Shown here piece by piece: positions 5,672 through 13,346 of a stretch of 23,678 bases of DNA. The translations under genes were made by a program, and so were the position numbers. Source of the DNA: a virus; the IMG/VR virus record IMGVR_UViG_3300042889_000286, positions 1 through 23,678 of that record. One strand, written 5' to 3'. How positions within the stretch are numbered: the first letter of the stretch is position 1; every line of letters starts with the position of its first letter. The notes beneath the pieces were generated by a model, which was not told where the DNA came from, did not search any database, and saw nothing but the letters and a program-made list of their open reading frames with translations.

Positions 5672-6544
5672 ATGCGCACAGAATCTTATCAATTATTTTC
5701 ACAACTGCTTGAAGGCTATCTCAACGAAGCCAGCACCAGTCTCAACTTGATACTAGACAATCCTGGTGGCAAACAAGTAGTTAAATTCCTTCACACAGAC
5801 ATGGGCCTTGCACATGATCAGGATTATCGACAAGTAGAAAAGATATCATGGAGTGAACTCAAAGACGCCAGAAGAGGTGCTTGGGTCATAATCAAAGGCA
5901 CCACAGGCACAGGAGCCATCCGTGCTACCACTAGCGGTAGTTATGAAGCCACTGCTAGCTCAGGTGGAGAAGTAGACAGTTTTGCAGATGGCCGAGGCGG
6001 CAACGTCATTGATTTTTTGAAATCAAAAATAGGCAAACTAAACAAGTTCTATGTGGGAAACAATACTTCTACAGTGAATGACAAACGAAAGAAACGTAAA
6101 GATCAACAGGCTGGCACTGACACTTCGATGGTCAGTGTAGACACCCTGACTAAAAAATTCAAGCCACTGTGGGCCAAAGCAATTACTGCTGCTATCGCAG
6201 ACGTCAAAGGACATATCGCCAATCAGATCAAGAACGATGCCTTTGACAAAGCTGCCAAAAAACTAGAACATGTGAAACGACTGCAACAAGCCATTGAGTC
6301 GTTGGAAACAGATTCTGACACACCTAACTCAGTCAGAGCTGCTATTAATGTTGCTGTGTTAATGGCAGCCAGTCATCACTACCCCGAACAGACTGGCGCT
6401 ATAAGTCGCAGCGGCTATCGCGACGGCTATAATGCACAGCGATCTGAGGGCGGTAGCCAACTGATGAAAGACATCGCAGGCGGCGATCAAAAGAAATTAG
6501 GCACAGTGCTGACATTCTTTAAAAGGAGTTTGATTTCAGGATGA
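5672..6544 (+). CDS. Unknown phage protein with capsid-targeting-like leader (290 aa)
   Basis: A 290-residue protein that I do not recognise. The ATG at 5672 is preferred to the in-frame ATG at 5624, which would lie inside the nuclease gene. The N-terminus MRTESYQLFSQLLEGYLNEA has two L-x-E sites (LLE|G and LNE|A) of the type cut by the T4 prohead protease. Residues around 60-100 form a strand-rich Gly/Ser/Thr region (VIIKGTTGTGAIRATTSGS). A Lys/Arg-rich linker (DKRKKRKDQQ) near 145 and a long helical segment with repeated basic residues follow. The C-terminus reads GYRDGYNAQRSEGGSQLM. It overlaps the next gene by ATGA, so the two products probably work together. A packaged internal head protein or toxin-like effector is possible but unproven. 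Confidence 0.7.
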   Translation: MRTESYQLFSQLLEGYLNEASTSLNLILDNPGGKQVVKFLHTDMGLAHDQDYRQVEKISWSELKDARRGAWVIIKGTTGTGAIRATTSGSYEATASSGGEVDSFADGRGGNVIDFLKSKIGKLNKFYVGNNTSTVNDKRKKRKDQQAGTDTSMVSVDTLTKKFKPLWAKAITAAIADVKGHIANQIKNDAFDKAAKKLEHVKRLQQAIESLETDSDTPNSVRAAINVAVLMAASHHYPEQTGAISRSGYRDGYNAQRSEGGSQLMKDIAGGDQKKLGTVLTFFKRSLISG

Positions 6545-7653
6545 AACTCAATCAAATAGTTCTCGAAGCCAACATAGCAGCCAAACTCAAAGATCCCAAG
6601 ATGGTCAAGATGTTGAGCATAGCCATGCGCCATGATGGCACATTGCCCAAAGATCGTGTGGCCAAACTAGGACCTAAACCCTCAGATGACGAGATAGTTA
6701 AACTATGGAGTGATCTCCTAGACCTCAGTCTCAGCAGCACAGACTATGGCAACATCTCCACTGATGGCAAGTTTGACGAATGGTTGACTCGCATGTATAT
6801 CAATGGCGTGGCCGACTTTGAAGACATCAACGGCGAAGGTGGCGACGCTCTAGGTGCTTGGAAGGCCCTGAGCATACGTGGCAAACTAGCAGAAAAAGAT
6901 CAAGACTTCAACAAGTTTAAAAATCTACGTCAAATACAATCTATCATTCAGCAGCGCAATTATCGCGATGAACTTAACCGTATCAAAGATGCTGAAGTCA
7001 TTGAAAAACACAAACGTGATCGCAAAGAAATCACCATCGTAGATGATGAACGATTCCTTATCGTAGTTCCTATGAACTACGGTTCATGCTACACATTCAA
7101 CAACTCCGCAGGTTTCCAAGCCAGCTTCTGCACAGGATCAAGCTCAGGTGAACGCTGGTTTAAAACCTATGCTCCAGACGGTCCTGTGATATCTGTGTTT
7201 GACAAAGAAAATTCAGATGATGTTAATGGCAAATGGCAGATACATGCTCCTACTAATCAAATCAACAACGGCAATCAAAGCATACGATCAGACGAGAAGT
7301 TCTCAGAACTGTTTCCTGGACTGATGAAGCGCATTGTCGCAGGTATCCAAAGCAAGGCAGCAGAACTAAAAACAGCCAGCGAAGATGTGGCCCGTGGCGG
7401 GTATGATATTCCGGCTGCTATAGCAGATTTGAAAAAACGATTCCCGTTAAGTTATGCTTCAGGCGAAGAAAAGCCAGCAGCGCCTGAACCAGATGCCAAT
7501 GACGGTCCTGGAACGTATGTAGTAACACAGACTGCATCAGGTAGGACTGCTCGTATCCAAGGTGAAAGCCGCCAAGACATCATTGCCAAGTTAACAGCTC
7601 GATATCCAGATAGCACAGAAGCAGACTATACCATCGAGAAAGCACAAGAATAA
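6541..7653 (+). CDS. Unknown phage protein, partner of the upstream gene (370 aa)
   Basis: A 370-residue protein beginning MKLNQIVLEANIAAKL, another leader with a possible prohead-protease-like site (VLE|A). The core around residues 175-240 (FLIVVPMNYGSCYTFNNSAG, ASFCTGSSSGERWFKTYA, then DGPVISVFDKE and GKWQIHAPTNQ) resembles a family I recall from T4-like phages. That family has a Cys/Trp-rich G.k.WCTa..... WF..Y...GPly.i.d pattern and no agreed function. C-terminal residues from about 325 (GTYVVTQTASGRTARIQGES...ITAKL-like) form a small separate domain after an Ala/Pro/Glu linker. Translation is coupled to the preceding gene by ATGA. No signal peptide or membrane segment is present. Confidence 0.7.
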   Translation: MKLNQIVLEANIAAKLKDPKMVKMLSIAMRHDGTLPKDRVAKLGPKPSDDEIVKLWSDLLDLSLSSTDYGNISTDGKFDEWLTRMYINGVADFEDINGEGGDALGAWKALSIRGKLAEKDQDFNKFKNLRQIQSIIQQRNYRDELNRIKDAEVIEKHKRDRKEITIVDDERFLIVVPMNYGSCYTFNNSAGFQASFCTGSSSGERWFKTYAPDGPVISVFDKENSDDVNGKWQIHAPTNQINNGNQSIRSDEKFSELFPGLMKRIVAGIQSKAAELKTASEDVARGGYDIPAAIADLKKRFPLSYASGEEKPAAPEPDANDGPGTYVVTQTASGRTARIQGESRQDIIAKLTARYPDSTEADYTIEKAQE

Positions 7654-7770: not shown

Positions 7771-8406
7771 ATGAAGATAGCATTGTTCTTGCATCAGCCT
7801 AAATGTTCAGTAGAGTCCGGCAACGGCATCCTCCAAGCACTACAACCATACCACAGTTTTAAAATATTCACACGCTGGCACGTTGATGCTGACTTCTTTG
7901 ATGATGTTGACATGATAGCTGTACCAGGAGGTATTGGTGATGCCGATAGTTTTGATCACCTGCTGGCACACAACGGAGATCGAGTCAGGGACTTTGTTGG
8001 TCGAGGCGGAAGGTATCTTGGCATATGTATGGGAGCATACTGGGCTGCGGAAGACTATTTTGATATCGTAGATGGCATAGAGGCTGTGCAATACATCACC
8101 CGCCCTGGCACAGACACACGTAGACCGCATGCCAAAGCATTACCTATAACTTGGCAAGGGCAACAAGAACGAATGTATTTCTACGATGGATGTGCTTTAG
8201 TAGGTGATACTACAAAATTTAAAACTGTTGCTACCTATGCCAATGGTGATGCTATGGCCGTAATACAAAACAACATAGGGCTAATTGGATGTCACCCAGA
8301 GAGTCAACTCAGTTGGTACAACGAATATCATAGCTGGATGAAGCCTCACTATCACGGTGGGCGACATCATGAACTGCTGTTGGATTTTGTCAGCGACCTA
8401 CAATAA
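7771..8406 (+). CDS. BPL_N-type glutamine-amidotransferase-like protein
   Basis: A 211-residue protein of the class I glutamine amidotransferase fold, closest in pattern to the N-terminal domain of biotin-protein ligases (BPL_N). The nucleophile elbow is YLGICMGAYWA with C86. The His/Glu partners are CHPES (H175, E177). A VPGG motif at 51-54 supplies the usual oxyanion strand. The start at 7771 (MKIALFLHQ) is preferred because the fold begins there; an in-frame ATG at 7717 would add 18 unconserved-looking residues. No ligase or synthetase domain is attached, so the substrate is unknown. It opens the accessory island and its 3' end overlaps the convergent HAD gene by 17 nt. A protease- or amidase-like activity is equally possible from the fold. 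Confidence 0.8.
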   Translation: MKIALFLHQPKCSVESGNGILQALQPYHSFKIFTRWHVDADFFDDVDMIAVPGGIGDADSFDHLLAHNGDRVRDFVGRGGRYLGICMGAYWAAEDYFDIVDGIEAVQYITRPGTDTRRPHAKALPITWQGQQERMYFYDGCALVGDTTKFKTVATYANGDAMAVIQNNIGLIGCHPESQLSWYNEYHSWMKPHYHGGRHHELLLDFVSDLQ

Positions 8407-8974
8407 TACCATAGATCTCTTTCCAATTCTTTACAACTGGATAAGAACATTTGTGATGCATGTTATGTCCGTGTTCGATAAGAATAGATTGTAATCCTAA
8501 GTTATAGCCAACATCGGCATTGGCAGGCTTGTCTTCAATCCAATACAGATCACTATCTTTATAAGGTGCAAGTGCATCATCTTTGTCTGCACCAGTGTCT
8601 AAACAGATCACTGTTTCAATAGCGTTACCAAACAACTTGCGTAGATTCTTTTCTCTAAGCTTCTGTGCGTTTTTATCTAGACTTAGACTGGTGATCACTC
8701 GGAATTGATAACCGTGTTTTTCGTGCAGTTTCTTGACATAGTGAGCTGAGTCACGTAGAGCAGGAAGGAAGCCAATAGCAGCCGACTCGTTGAATGTCTT
8801 GATGACTTTTTTGGAATCTTTTTCTTCTAGCTCGTTGTAGTGGTGATGTAGATAATAGCTTTTTTTATTATCTGCGGTCAGTGTGTAACCGCGTTCTTGC
8901 ATCCAGACTGAGAATGCCCATTCCCAATCTAATAGAACACCGTCTGCGTCTGTGAGTATAATTTTTTGTTTCAT
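8390..8974 (-). CDS. HAD-superfamily phosphatase, possible 5'(3')-deoxyribonucleotidase type
   Basis: A 194-residue HAD hydrolase. Motif I is ILTDADGVLLDW with D9 (nucleophile) and D11. Motif II is RVITSLS (T95/S96), K131 in DKDDAL could be the motif III lysine, and motif IV is WIEDKPAN with E147/D148. Residues 17-75 between motifs I and II form a helical cap, as in C1-capped nucleotidases. Dephosphorylation of a nucleotide fits a phage that also carries ribonucleotide reductase, but the substrate is inferred. The gene is on the minus strand with a near-perfect sigma70 promoter directly abutting the ATG, so early or host-driven expression is likely. It converges with the amidotransferase-like gene and diverges from the desaturase. 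Confidence 0.85.
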   Translation of the reverse strand: MKQKIILTDADGVLLDWEWAFSVWMQERGYTLTADNKKSYYLHHHYNELEEKDSKKVIKTFNESAAIGFLPALRDSAHYVKKLHEKHGYQFRVITSLSLDKNAQKLREKNLRKLFGNAIETVICLDTGADKDDALAPYKDSDLYWIEDKPANADVGYNLGLQSILIEHGHNMHHKCSYPVVKNWKEIYGIIVGR

Positions 8975-9023: not shown

Positions 9024-9725
9024 ATGAACATAATAATCTATACCCTAGTGATGGTTCAAATCACCATAGCCTGTGTAACGCTATATTTGCACAGAAGCCA
9101 AACACATAGAGCAGTGCAATTTCACCCTGCGGTTAACCACATTATGCGAGCCTGGCTTTGGCTGACCACAGGCATGGTCACTCGTCAATGGGTGGCCATA
9201 CATCGCCGACATCATCAACGTTCGGACCAAGAGGGCGATCCGCATAGTCCACAGATCTATGGCATTTGGCGTGTGTTATTTGGCGGGGCATTTCTTTATC
9301 ATTCTGCCAGCAAAGACACAGCCATGGTTGATTCATTAAGCAAGGACTGCCCTAATGATTGGATCGAACGCAACCTTTACTCCGCACACAGTCGCTCAGG
9401 TATTCTTTTAATGCTGGTCATAGACTGCTTGCTCTTTGGACCGTGGGGACTGCTCGTGTGGGGTATTCAAATGATCTGGATTCCATTCTGGGCAGCTGGG
9501 GTAGTTAATGGACTTAGTCATTGGTGGGGTTACCGCAATGTTGAAACACCCGACACTTCGAGGAATTTAATACCCTGGGGATTCTGGATCGGTGGCGAGG
9601 AATTACACTCCAATCATCATGCCGATGGTGCCAATGCCAAGTTCAGCCAGAAGTGGTGGGAGTTTGACATTGGCTGGGCCTACATTTCTATACTAAGATT
9701 TTTTAGATTAGCAACAGTTAGATAA
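9024..9725 (+). CDS. Fatty acid desaturase (acyl-CoA/acyl-lipid delta-9 type)
   Basis: A 233-residue integral-membrane di-iron desaturase. All three histidine boxes are present: HRSQTH (23-28), HRRHH (60-64) and HSNHH (195-199). An extra His in GLSHWWGYRN is also typical of the OLE1/SCD-like group. Hydrophobic segments lie at about 3-22, 40-53, 125-143 and 145-165. It is short for the family because it lacks most of the N-terminal membrane region and has no cytochrome b5 domain. It probably inserts a double bond in host acyl chains using host ferredoxin or reductase, changing membrane fluidity; that host role is inference. A bidirectional terminator follows immediately. It belongs to the accessory island with the alpha/beta hydrolase, a possible lipid link. 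Confidence 0.92.
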   Translation: MNIIIYTLVMVQITIACVTLYLHRSQTHRAVQFHPAVNHIMRAWLWLTTGMVTRQWVAIHRRHHQRSDQEGDPHSPQIYGIWRVLFGGAFLYHSASKDTAMVDSLSKDCPNDWIERNLYSAHSRSGILLMLVIDCLLFGPWGLLVWGIQMIWIPFWAAGVVNGLSHWWGYRNVETPDTSRNLIPWGFWIGGEELHSNHHADGANAKFSQKWWEFDIGWAYISILRFFRLATVR

Positions 9726-11171: not shown

Positions 11172-11450
11172 ATGAAACTAAAAACAAGATCGATCCTGCA
11201 GGAATTAAATGAATTAGCGGAAATCCGTAACAAGGATGAACTGTTTGAAAGCCGTGCCACTAACATCATCAATTCAGCTATTAATCTGCTGGAAACGTTG
11301 AAGAAACACTACACTGCGGAACAGGCAGATGAGCTAGAACGTAGATTGTTAAATGCCATACGCGGTCAGGATCCTGCCAAATTCACACGAGGCATACGTA
11401 AGATTGCCGAATCTAAAAGAACCAAGAGACCGTTAAATGAATCAGAGTAA
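11172..11450 (+). CDS. Small helical conserved phage protein (92 aa)
   Basis: A 92-residue, highly charged, probably all-helical protein. The N-terminus MKLKTRSILQELNELAEIRN carries three L-x-E sites (LQE, LNE, LAE). The middle part ATNIINSAINLLETLKKHYTAEQADELERRLLNAI would form two helices, and residues 70-92 are strongly basic. I recall similar small proteins in marine T4-like phages but no function. It is preceded by a dual promoter and an AGGAAAGG ribosome-binding site. It overlaps the nucleotidyltransferase gene by 14 nt and therefore is probably coupled to it. Confidence 0.75.
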   Translation: MKLKTRSILQELNELAEIRNKDELFESRATNIINSAINLLETLKKHYTAEQADELERRLLNAIRGQDPAKFTRGIRKIAESKRTKRPLNESE

Positions 11451-12252
11451 ATTACTAGAAGGCGGCAATGTATTCAAGGGTTCAGACAAGCAGCCCCTAA
11501 CACAGCGCATTGCCACTGCAGATGTAGAAAGCACAGTGGACTACATTGAAAAGATCACAGGACTGGACTTTACCAAAGAGAAAGATCTAGACGATAAAAA
11601 GCCAGTGAAGTGGTTAGGCACTACTGGACGCAAAGAAGATCCAGATGGCACATTTGAACGCAACAGTTCGGGCGATCTAGACCTCAGCGTGGATGCCAAT
11701 GAAGTAGACAAAAGATCTTTCGCCGACAAGTTAATATCACAGTTCGGCAAAGAGAACATCAAATTAAGCGGTGACAATGTGCATTGGAAGGTGCCTATCA
11801 AAGGTGACAGCGCCAACGGATTTGTGCAAGCAGACTTTATGTTTTCAGCTAATCCCAAGTTCCAACAAGGATCAATGATCAGTGGTGGTGGAGAGTATCG
11901 TGGCGAACATCGCCACATTCTATTGAGTTCTATAGCTAGAGCCAAGAACATGAAGTATAGTCCCAAGCACGGGATATTAAATCCACAAACAGATGAACTG
12001 CTGCCCAACGGCAATGATTGGAATCAAATTGCCAAAGAATTGCTGGGACAGACTGCTACCATCAAAGACATCCGTTCAGTGGATGCCATCCTTAACTACA
12101 TTAAAAAACTGCCCAACTATGAAGAATTAGTCGCAGGGGCTAGAGAAACACTAGGCAAGCAGGGCATAGAGTTGCCTAAGGCCAATCAAATAGAAAGCTA
12201 CCAACCAGGAAGTATAGGTTGGATGCGTCAACTCATAGAAATAGTAAAATGA
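11437..12252 (+). CDS. Pol-beta-fold nucleotidyltransferase-like protein
   Basis: A 271-residue protein with the hallmarks of the nucleotidyltransferase fold. LGTTG (60-64) occupies the GS-type motif, SGDLDLSVD supplies the two metal-binding Asp (D80, D82), and VQADFMF supplies the third Asp (D133). The RGEHRHILLSSIARA helix near 150-165 and YSPKHGILN are further conserved-looking elements that I recall from a T4-like marine phage family. The transferred nucleotide and acceptor are unknown. The N-terminus MNQSKLLEGGNVFKG contains an LLE|G site. It overlaps the next gene by ATGA, and that gene carries ligase-like motifs, so the two may act in one nucleic-acid modification or repair reaction. 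That joint role is inference. Confidence 0.8.
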   Translation: MNQSKLLEGGNVFKGSDKQPLTQRIATADVESTVDYIEKITGLDFTKEKDLDDKKPVKWLGTTGRKEDPDGTFERNSSGDLDLSVDANEVDKRSFADKLISQFGKENIKLSGDNVHWKVPIKGDSANGFVQADFMFSANPKFQQGSMISGGGEYRGEHRHILLSSIARAKNMKYSPKHGILNPQTDELLPNGNDWNQIAKELLGQTATIKDIRSVDAILNYIKKLPNYEELVAGARETLGKQGIELPKANQIESYQPGSIGWMRQLIEIVK

Positions 12253-13346
12253 GATTCTGGGAACTATTATTAGAAGATGATGCGCCTCCTGCCAAGAAAG
12301 TTGGCAGAGAGTTCAACCACCTTGAAGACAAGGTGTTTGCAGAAGATGATGGTGCAATTAAAGTTATACAAGCTCTAAAAGCTGTGGCCAAACCCGAAAC
12401 CAGCATCACAATCAAATGGGATGGCAACCCCACAGTGTATTGGGGACGTGATGATGACGGCACATTCCGCATGGTGGGCAAGAACAACTGGGGACGTGAG
12501 GAAGGTAAAAGCTCTAGCCCAGATGAATTAAAATCATTTATCATGAGTCGCGGCAAAGGTGAAGACTGGCGATCCAAATTTGCCAGTGATATGGCCGCGA
12601 TGTGGCCCATATTCGAAGCTGCTACGCCCAAAGATTTCCGTGGCTATGTCTACGGTGATCTCCTGTTCCACCCAGGCAAGCCATACACAGGTGCAGATGG
12701 TAGGATCTCATTCACCCCTAATCAAGTCACTTACTCAGTTTTAGTCAACAGCGACACAGGCCGAGCACTGGCCAAGGCCAAGGTAGCTGTGGCAGCTCAC
12801 AAGGTATTCGGTTATTTCGGAGACAAGAGTGGAGAAGACTTTGATAATCCAGAACTGTTTAATAACACTCCTGCACTTGAAGTATTTGGACTCACAGCAG
12901 TCAGTCACAGACCAGCTGTGGGTGCAGAAAATCTGGCCAAGATTGAAGCTTTGGCCAAGAATCAGTCAAAGATCAACGGCCTGCTGGCTCCTGTCGCAGG
13001 CATGGGTTATCTACGGACAGAGATCTATAACTTTGTGAATAGTCAAAGCAAGGCTAAACAATTAGATAACATCAACACTGATGCGTTCCTGGCCTTTGAA
13101 CAAAAGACTCCCGCCAAAGCTGCTAAAATAGCTGCACACAGTGAACGTCATCCAGGAGTAATGGATATTTTATTTCAGTTGGTAAAAGAAATTATGTCTG
13201 CTAAAGATGAAGTAATCCGAGAGCTGGACGCAGCTGAAGGTGAAATCACAGCCACTACAGACGGCAAGCCCGGTGGCGAGGGCTATATCATAGGCGGCGA
13301 CAAATATGTGCCTAGAGATCGGTGGACTCCGTTTAGAGCCGATTAA
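12249..13346 (+). CDS. Protein with DNA/RNA-ligase-like motifs (DUF6267-like), 365 aa
   Basis: A 365-residue protein that resembles a widespread T4-like phage family of unknown function (I believe DUF6267). Visible motifs suggest a covalent nucleotidyltransferase/ligase core: ITIKWDGNP with K56 (compare motif I KxDG), GYVYGDLLF at 132-140 (compare motif III), GEGYIIGG at 343-350 (compare motif IV EG-V) and a terminal KYVPRDRW with K352 (compare motif V). The order fits ligases, but motif III has Asp for the usual Glu and the long 145-340 insert is unusual. The start at 12249 overlaps the previous stop; an in-frame start at 12219 would add 10 residues. The leader MRFWELLLEDD has an LLE|D site. 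If active, it could seal or adenylylate nucleic acid. No OB domain is recognised. Confidence 0.75.
   Translation: MRFWELLLEDDAPPAKKVGREFNHLEDKVFAEDDGAIKVIQALKAVAKPETSITIKWDGNPTVYWGRDDDGTFRMVGKNNWGREEGKSSSPDELKSFIMSRGKGEDWRSKFASDMAAMWPIFEAATPKDFRGYVYGDLLFHPGKPYTGADGRISFTPNQVTYSVLVNSDTGRALAKAKVAVAAHKVFGYFGDKSGEDFDNPELFNNTPALEVFGLTAVSHRPAVGAENLAKIEALAKNQSKINGLLAPVAGMGYLRTEIYNFVNSQSKAKQLDNINTDAFLAFEQKTPAKAAKIAAHSERHPGVMDILFQLVKEIMSAKDEVIRELDAAEGEITATTDGKPGGEGYIIGGDKYVPRDRWTPFRAD

Follow-up and report, generated by a model that had tools for sequence, protein, structure and literature searches.

Two overlapping genes in a 23.7 kb viral record (IMGVR_UViG_3300042889_000286; this whole stretch of DNA is called the window below) encode a predicted Pol-beta-fold nucleotidyltransferase (NTase) and a predicted ligase-fold protein of the DUF6267 family, and homologues of the NTase are linked or fused to ligase-like proteins in very different large phages. 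With somewhat less than even confidence, we read the pair as a head-packaged, injected end-repair module that would combine nucleotide restoration with sealing, RNA being its most likely substrate. The record itself is probably a fragment of a larger genome; blastn of its DNA found nothing among 50,697 phage records, and protein searches returned distant matches only.

Predicted folds and conserved residues

As a sequence-only reading of this DNA had described, two overlapping open reading frames are present, the NTase gene (11437..12252, + strand, 271 aa) and the DUF6267 gene (12249..13346, + strand, 365 aa). The second gene most likely starts at the ATG at 12249, which overlaps the NTase stop as ATGA (12249..12252, + strand, within AAAATGA), a TTG at 12219 being less likely. 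The residue numbers used in the sequence-only reading fit the ATG.

The AF2 model of the NTase (pLDDT 90.2, pTM 0.81) has the palm fold of the Pol-beta superfamily, with Pol beta, lambda and mu and ASFV PolX as its top Foldseek matches in the PDB, a probability of 0.97-1.0 for most of these and a best E-value of 1.5e-3. The superfamily's motif set (G[GS], DxD and a third Asp) is present: the G[ST] of the Pol-beta signature lies in G61-T-T-G64 (11617..11628, + strand; G61 in 35/35 homologues, S or T at position 62 in 35/35), the metal-binding D80-L-D82 in SSGDLDL (11674..11682, + strand; both Asp in 35/35) and the third catalytic Asp in Q131-A-D133 of VQADF (11827..11835, + strand; Q131 and D133 in 35/35). 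Across these 35 divergent homologues only seven columns were invariant (G61, D80, D82, Q131, D133, G156 and R159), and the three Asp had been named from one sequence before any alignment was made (three in 7 of 271 columns, p of about 1e-5 if random). The NTase matched no Pfam family above threshold, and membership of RlaP was rejected, as none of the 35 NTases matched PF10127 at E up to 1. Its model and conserved residues point to a Pol-beta-fold NTase of a family absent from all libraries searched. A single scan of bacterial and archaeal genomes with one short pattern, limited in sensitivity, confirmed no cellular relatives, and PDB sequence-profile searches with the NTase or the DUF6267 family gave nothing relevant.

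The second product belongs to DUF6267 (PF19782, phrog_455; 65.5 bits against a cut-off of 27, E=7.2e-18), a family matched in 469 phage records, mostly of cyanophages, and of which we found no mention in the literature searched. Its AF2 model (pLDDT 90.2, pTM 0.85) had DNA ligases and tRNA ligase as its top 14 Foldseek matches in the PDB, including DNA ligase IV (the best), Trl1 and archaeal DNA/RNA ligases; ligase probability reached 0.93, but with an E-value of 4.8e-3 and a low TM-score, and carbonic anhydrases ranked after the ligases with negligible probability. Among 53 homologues (19-71% identity; numbering from ATG 12249), 21 columns were invariant, including K56, W57, D58, G59, D137, E344, G345, K352 and R356. 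These columns hold ligase motif I, K56-W-D-G59 (12414..12425, + strand; 53/53), a motif III-like G136-D137 (12654..12659, + strand; D137 in 53/53, G136 in 51/53), motif IV, E344-G345 (13278..13283, + strand; 53/53) and a motif V-like K352-x-V-x-R356 (13302..13316, + strand; K352 and R356 in 53/53, V354 in 52/53). Motif I KxDG, motif IV EG, the motif V Lys and the fold are those of the covalent nucleotidyltransferase superfamily. Motif III of ligases usually contains Glu, whereas the presumed equivalent place in DUF6267 holds the invariant Asp137; the motif V, K-x-V-x-R, lacks the second Lys of the canonical K-h-K. In the model K56 immediately follows a strand, D137 belongs to the long strand at the centre and K352 to the final one, and a helical stretch intervenes; this predicted order of elements is what a ligase nucleotidyltransferase domain carrying an insert should show.

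The ligase motifs proposed from the DNA alone, KWDG (K56), GEGYII (E344) and K352, are present, with K56, E344 and K352 invariant in 53/53 sequences, and naming these three residues ahead of the alignment has a p of about 2e-4 if random (three in 21 of 365 columns). Lack of conservation of K56 or of the D80/D82/D133 set, which that reading had offered as grounds for abandoning it, was not seen among the homologues, and its view that two different nucleotidyl-transfer folds stand side by side is supported by the predicted models and the conserved catalytic residues.

Closer assignment to known ligase families failed. The DUF6267 protein ends 13 residues after K352, which rules against an ATP-dependent DNA ligase with a C-terminal OB domain (motif VI); it had no match to RNA_ligase (PF09414) at E up to 1, and hhalign of DUF6267 against T4 Rnl1, gp30 and RNA_ligase (PF09414) gave only motif-level alignments, no better than an unrelated control. 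The motif IV-V stretch of T4 RNA ligase 1 (RnlA), EGYVAVMKDGSHFKI, resembles that of DUF6267, EGFVAIKDGTAVKLV, a likeness that is not significant by profile comparison, and in T4 Rnl1 motif V is followed by a C-terminal domain that DUF6267 lacks.

Linkage, fusion and exchange of partners

Counting as linked any NTase with either of two ligase-like families within 2.5 kb, or fused to it, we found 154 of 166 distinct NTase sequences linked to one or the other, corresponding to 29 of 34 clusters at 70% identity; when only loci found by the NTase query alone were counted, the figures were 102/114 sequences and 23/28 clusters. DUF6267 lies downstream of 118 NTases and is fused to 15, a second ligase-like family of jumbo phages lies upstream of 21, and the remaining 12 have none (seven despite room, five at contig edges). 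The fusions are about 604-612 aa long, or, where they include a middle segment, about 800 aa. Co-occurrence of the pair in other phages, which the sequence-only reading had put forward as a check, therefore extends to very different large phages.

Atu_ph07, Phosso and PA5oct encode a different ligase-like protein, with E-K-[LI]-D-G, E, E-G and K motifs, upstream of their NTase homologue; its gene adjoins the NTase gene in Atu_ph07 and Phosso and stands two genes away in PA5oct. The family is nonetheless homologous to DUF6267 (hhalign 96.7%, E 4.7e-10), and its members match RNA_ligase weakly in 10/19 cases (best 6e-4) and DUF6267 in 6/19. In BFVD a 324-aa Atu_ph07 protein, of the same size as the product of the NTase's neighbour gene, is named RNA ligase. 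Between the ligase-like gene and the NTase of PA5oct (L145:4638-5657) lies a 339-aa gene, possibly nuclease-like, with a D..SMK stretch and no Pfam match. In a Lak phage (L147:7757-8944, read with TAG as Q) a further, different Pol-beta-like gene sits close to the NTase, which has no ligase linked to it.

Cyanophage DUF6267 has a HIGH-type (PF01467) NTase after it in 57/80 loci, while no HIGH-type NTase occurs at any of 297 Pol-beta NTase loci, which indicates that the partner of DUF6267 is exchanged. In one cyanophage locus (L142:7188-8252) a HIGH-type cytidylyltransferase with the leader MRFRQFIIEA comes directly after DUF6267. A 591-aa cytidyltransferase-like protein of S-PM2 in BFVD can be aligned to the DUF6267 model, which hints at a fusion.

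Leaders and possible head packaging

Possible head-cargo leaders had been proposed for both proteins, and the N-termini are consistent with this, each carrying an (L/I)xE site of the kind cut in T4-type head cargo. The putative NTase leader, MNQSKLLE (11437..11460, + strand), places a prohead-protease-like site before a conserved GG (MNQSKLLE/GGNVF, the slash marking the putative cut); residues 1-8 are disordered in the model (pLDDT about 45), and the jumbo NTase homologues begin directly at M-GG.AF. The DUF6267 leader, MRFWELLLE (12249..12275, + strand; MRFWELLLE/DD, putative cut between E9 and D10), resembles the T4 IPII/IPIII leader MKTYQEFIAE/A and falls in a low-confidence region of the model (residues about 1-20). 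A similar form, MRAFEFLTE/A, recurs before DUF6267 in relatives, and a leader-like ITE/A or INE/G site is retained between the halves of the NTase-DUF6267 fusions. Trimming of the T4 IPII/IPIII leader by gp21 is established, and the T4 internal head proteins (IPI-III, Alt) share this type of N-terminal capsid-targeting leader with its (L/I)xE cut (PMC9958956). None of them is a ligase or polymerase.

The genomic context points the same way for the NTase. Directly upstream of it lies a 92-aa gene (11172..11450, + strand) of the virion structural protein family phrog_11854 (E=3.1e-17), which is also found upstream of the NTase in Atu_ph07 (3.4e-35) and PA5oct (7.3e-20), and the PA5oct NTase and several of its neighbours are annotated as virion proteins by ESI-MS/MS, whereas the PA5oct ligase-like protein is not so flagged. 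Because cyanophage DUF6267 and the jumbo ligases are without a clear leader, support for a packaged ligase comes chiefly from the window's own clade. Virions of S-SM1 have been found to contain a putative citidylyltransferase (PMC3037559) and those of S-CREM2 a cytidylyltransferase (PMC10665884), both of the same type as the leader-bearing NTase beside cyanophage DUF6267. Beside the Atu_ph07 module (L143:8682-12432) runs a tandem series of genes with leaders such as MRWHQLIEN or MKWHQLTEA, most of which have a YRG motif in common. They resemble injected paralogues of ADP-ribosyltransferase-like type, though the members tested had no Pfam match. Within the window, a 370-aa gene (6541-7653) whose product begins in leader-like fashion with MKLNQIVLEA and matches nothing in Pfam or PHROG may be further head cargo.

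Possible roles of the module and its neighbours

Sequential injected end repair, NTase then ligase, is the most economical reading of the module. Both proteins, with their capsid-targeting leaders trimmed by the prohead protease, would enter the host with the DNA. The fold and motifs suggest that the NTase would act first, adding the missing nucleotide or nucleotides to a broken 3' end, and that the DUF6267 protein would self-adenylate on K56 and then activate the 5'-phosphate end and seal the strand. The most likely substrate would be RNA, chiefly tRNA cleaved by the anticodon nucleases with which hosts defend themselves, and injection would provide repair capacity before the phage's own genes are expressed. 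Three points favour RNA: the RNA_ligase matches, the absence of an OB domain and the precedent of RlaP, a Pol-beta NTase found with RNA ligases in phage RNA repair, for which a role in replacing lost nucleotides ahead of sealing has been proposed (PMC7824862). The window pair likewise joins a Pol-beta NTase to a partner of RNA-ligase type, but it differs in its lack of a PF10127 match, in having DUF6267 as ligase and in leaders that indicate head packaging. Separate RlaP genes occur in Atu_ph07, Lak and another relative, and since relatives such as Atu_ph07 have, at other sites, RNA ligase matches of their own as well as an RlaP gene, the module is additional to these. Against the end-repair reading stand Foldseek E-values of only 1e-3 to 1e-2 with low TM-scores, top folds for the NTase that are DNA polymerases rather than CCA-adding enzymes or RlaP, and the Asp at motif III and the variant motif V of DUF6267. 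The hhalign comparisons at control level, the unflagged PA5oct ligase-like protein, the leaderless jumbo ligases and cyanophage DUF6267, and the lack of a consistently linked kinase or phosphatase also count against it. The exchange for a HIGH-type NTase in cyanophages is the observation that fits worst, as it conflicts with simple gap filling.

DNA is the main rival substrate, since DNA enzymes head the results of both fold searches, and it is possible, if rather less likely, that the same cargo is a minimal end-joining or gap-repair kit that would repair the injected genome, circularise it or close breaks made by the host. The PolX family enzymes, ASFV PolX included, that best match the NTase and the DNA ligase IV that best matches DUF6267 favour this, as do the primase/DnaB neighbours of the module in jumbo phages and the precedent of ASFV, whose PolX and ligase form a minimal viral repair pair (PMC5330486) and whose PolX the NTase model matches, although that pair repairs DNA in a eukaryotic virus and no homology was shown for the ligase. 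Against it, the models matched by the jumbo members are those of RNA_ligase and not of DNA ligases, no C-terminal OB domain follows motif V, profile comparison with T4 gp30 gave nothing, and the fold E-values are too weak for ranking DNA over RNA. We consider it unlikely that the two proteins are instead injected effectors that tag host molecules, whether by NMPylating tRNA or protein or with a modified nucleotide, by a logic like that of T4 Alt, an ADP-ribosyltransferase; the leaders and cargo context, the leader-bearing paralogues adjoining the Atu_ph07 module and the HIGH-type partner of cyanophage DUF6267, which suggests nucleotide transfer rather than gap filling as the common theme, agree with such a role, but the ligase partner and the fusions point to a two-step strand reaction.

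Ordinary intracellular repair enzymes whose leader-like N-termini are incidental would account for the leaderless jumbo-phage ligases and cyanophage DUF6267, and for separate RNA ligase matches elsewhere in several of these genomes. We find this improbable given the mass-spectrometric annotation of the PA5oct NTase in virions, the conservation in DUF6267 relatives of a leader form similar to that of T4 IPII/IPIII and the virion protein family encoded directly upstream. Virion association of the PA5oct homologue would also suit catalytically dead structural or scaffold proteins built on enzyme folds, an idea to which we give very little credence, as every catalytic position stays unchanged in homologues with as little as about 20% identity.

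A bolder form of the end-repair reading, which we hold with more reserve, is that DUF6267 is the ligase of a polymerase-ligase system peculiar to phages, separate from both RlaP and the known ligase families, that is virion-borne in many unrelated large phages and injected to mend broken tRNA or the incoming genome before expression begins. If end repair is correct, DUF6267, a Pfam family without function, would acquire a testable activity, two ligase-like families and a Pol-beta family would form one module across large phages, and enzymes of repair or counter-defence would be delivered with the genome instead of being made after infection.

No kinase or phosphatase was found consistently linked to the module; a narrow motif search placed a HAD phosphatase near 9/297 NTases, and in some relatives the NTase has HAD genes nearby. 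In the window itself an NT5C-like HAD phosphatase, below the Pfam cut-off, is encoded on the minus strand at 8390-8974. A fatty acid desaturase (PF00487, 7.4e-15) is encoded at 9024-9725. At another locus (L280:9305-10093), SoxY (7e-24) and SoxZ (4e-17) domains are joined in a single viral open reading frame near the NTase.
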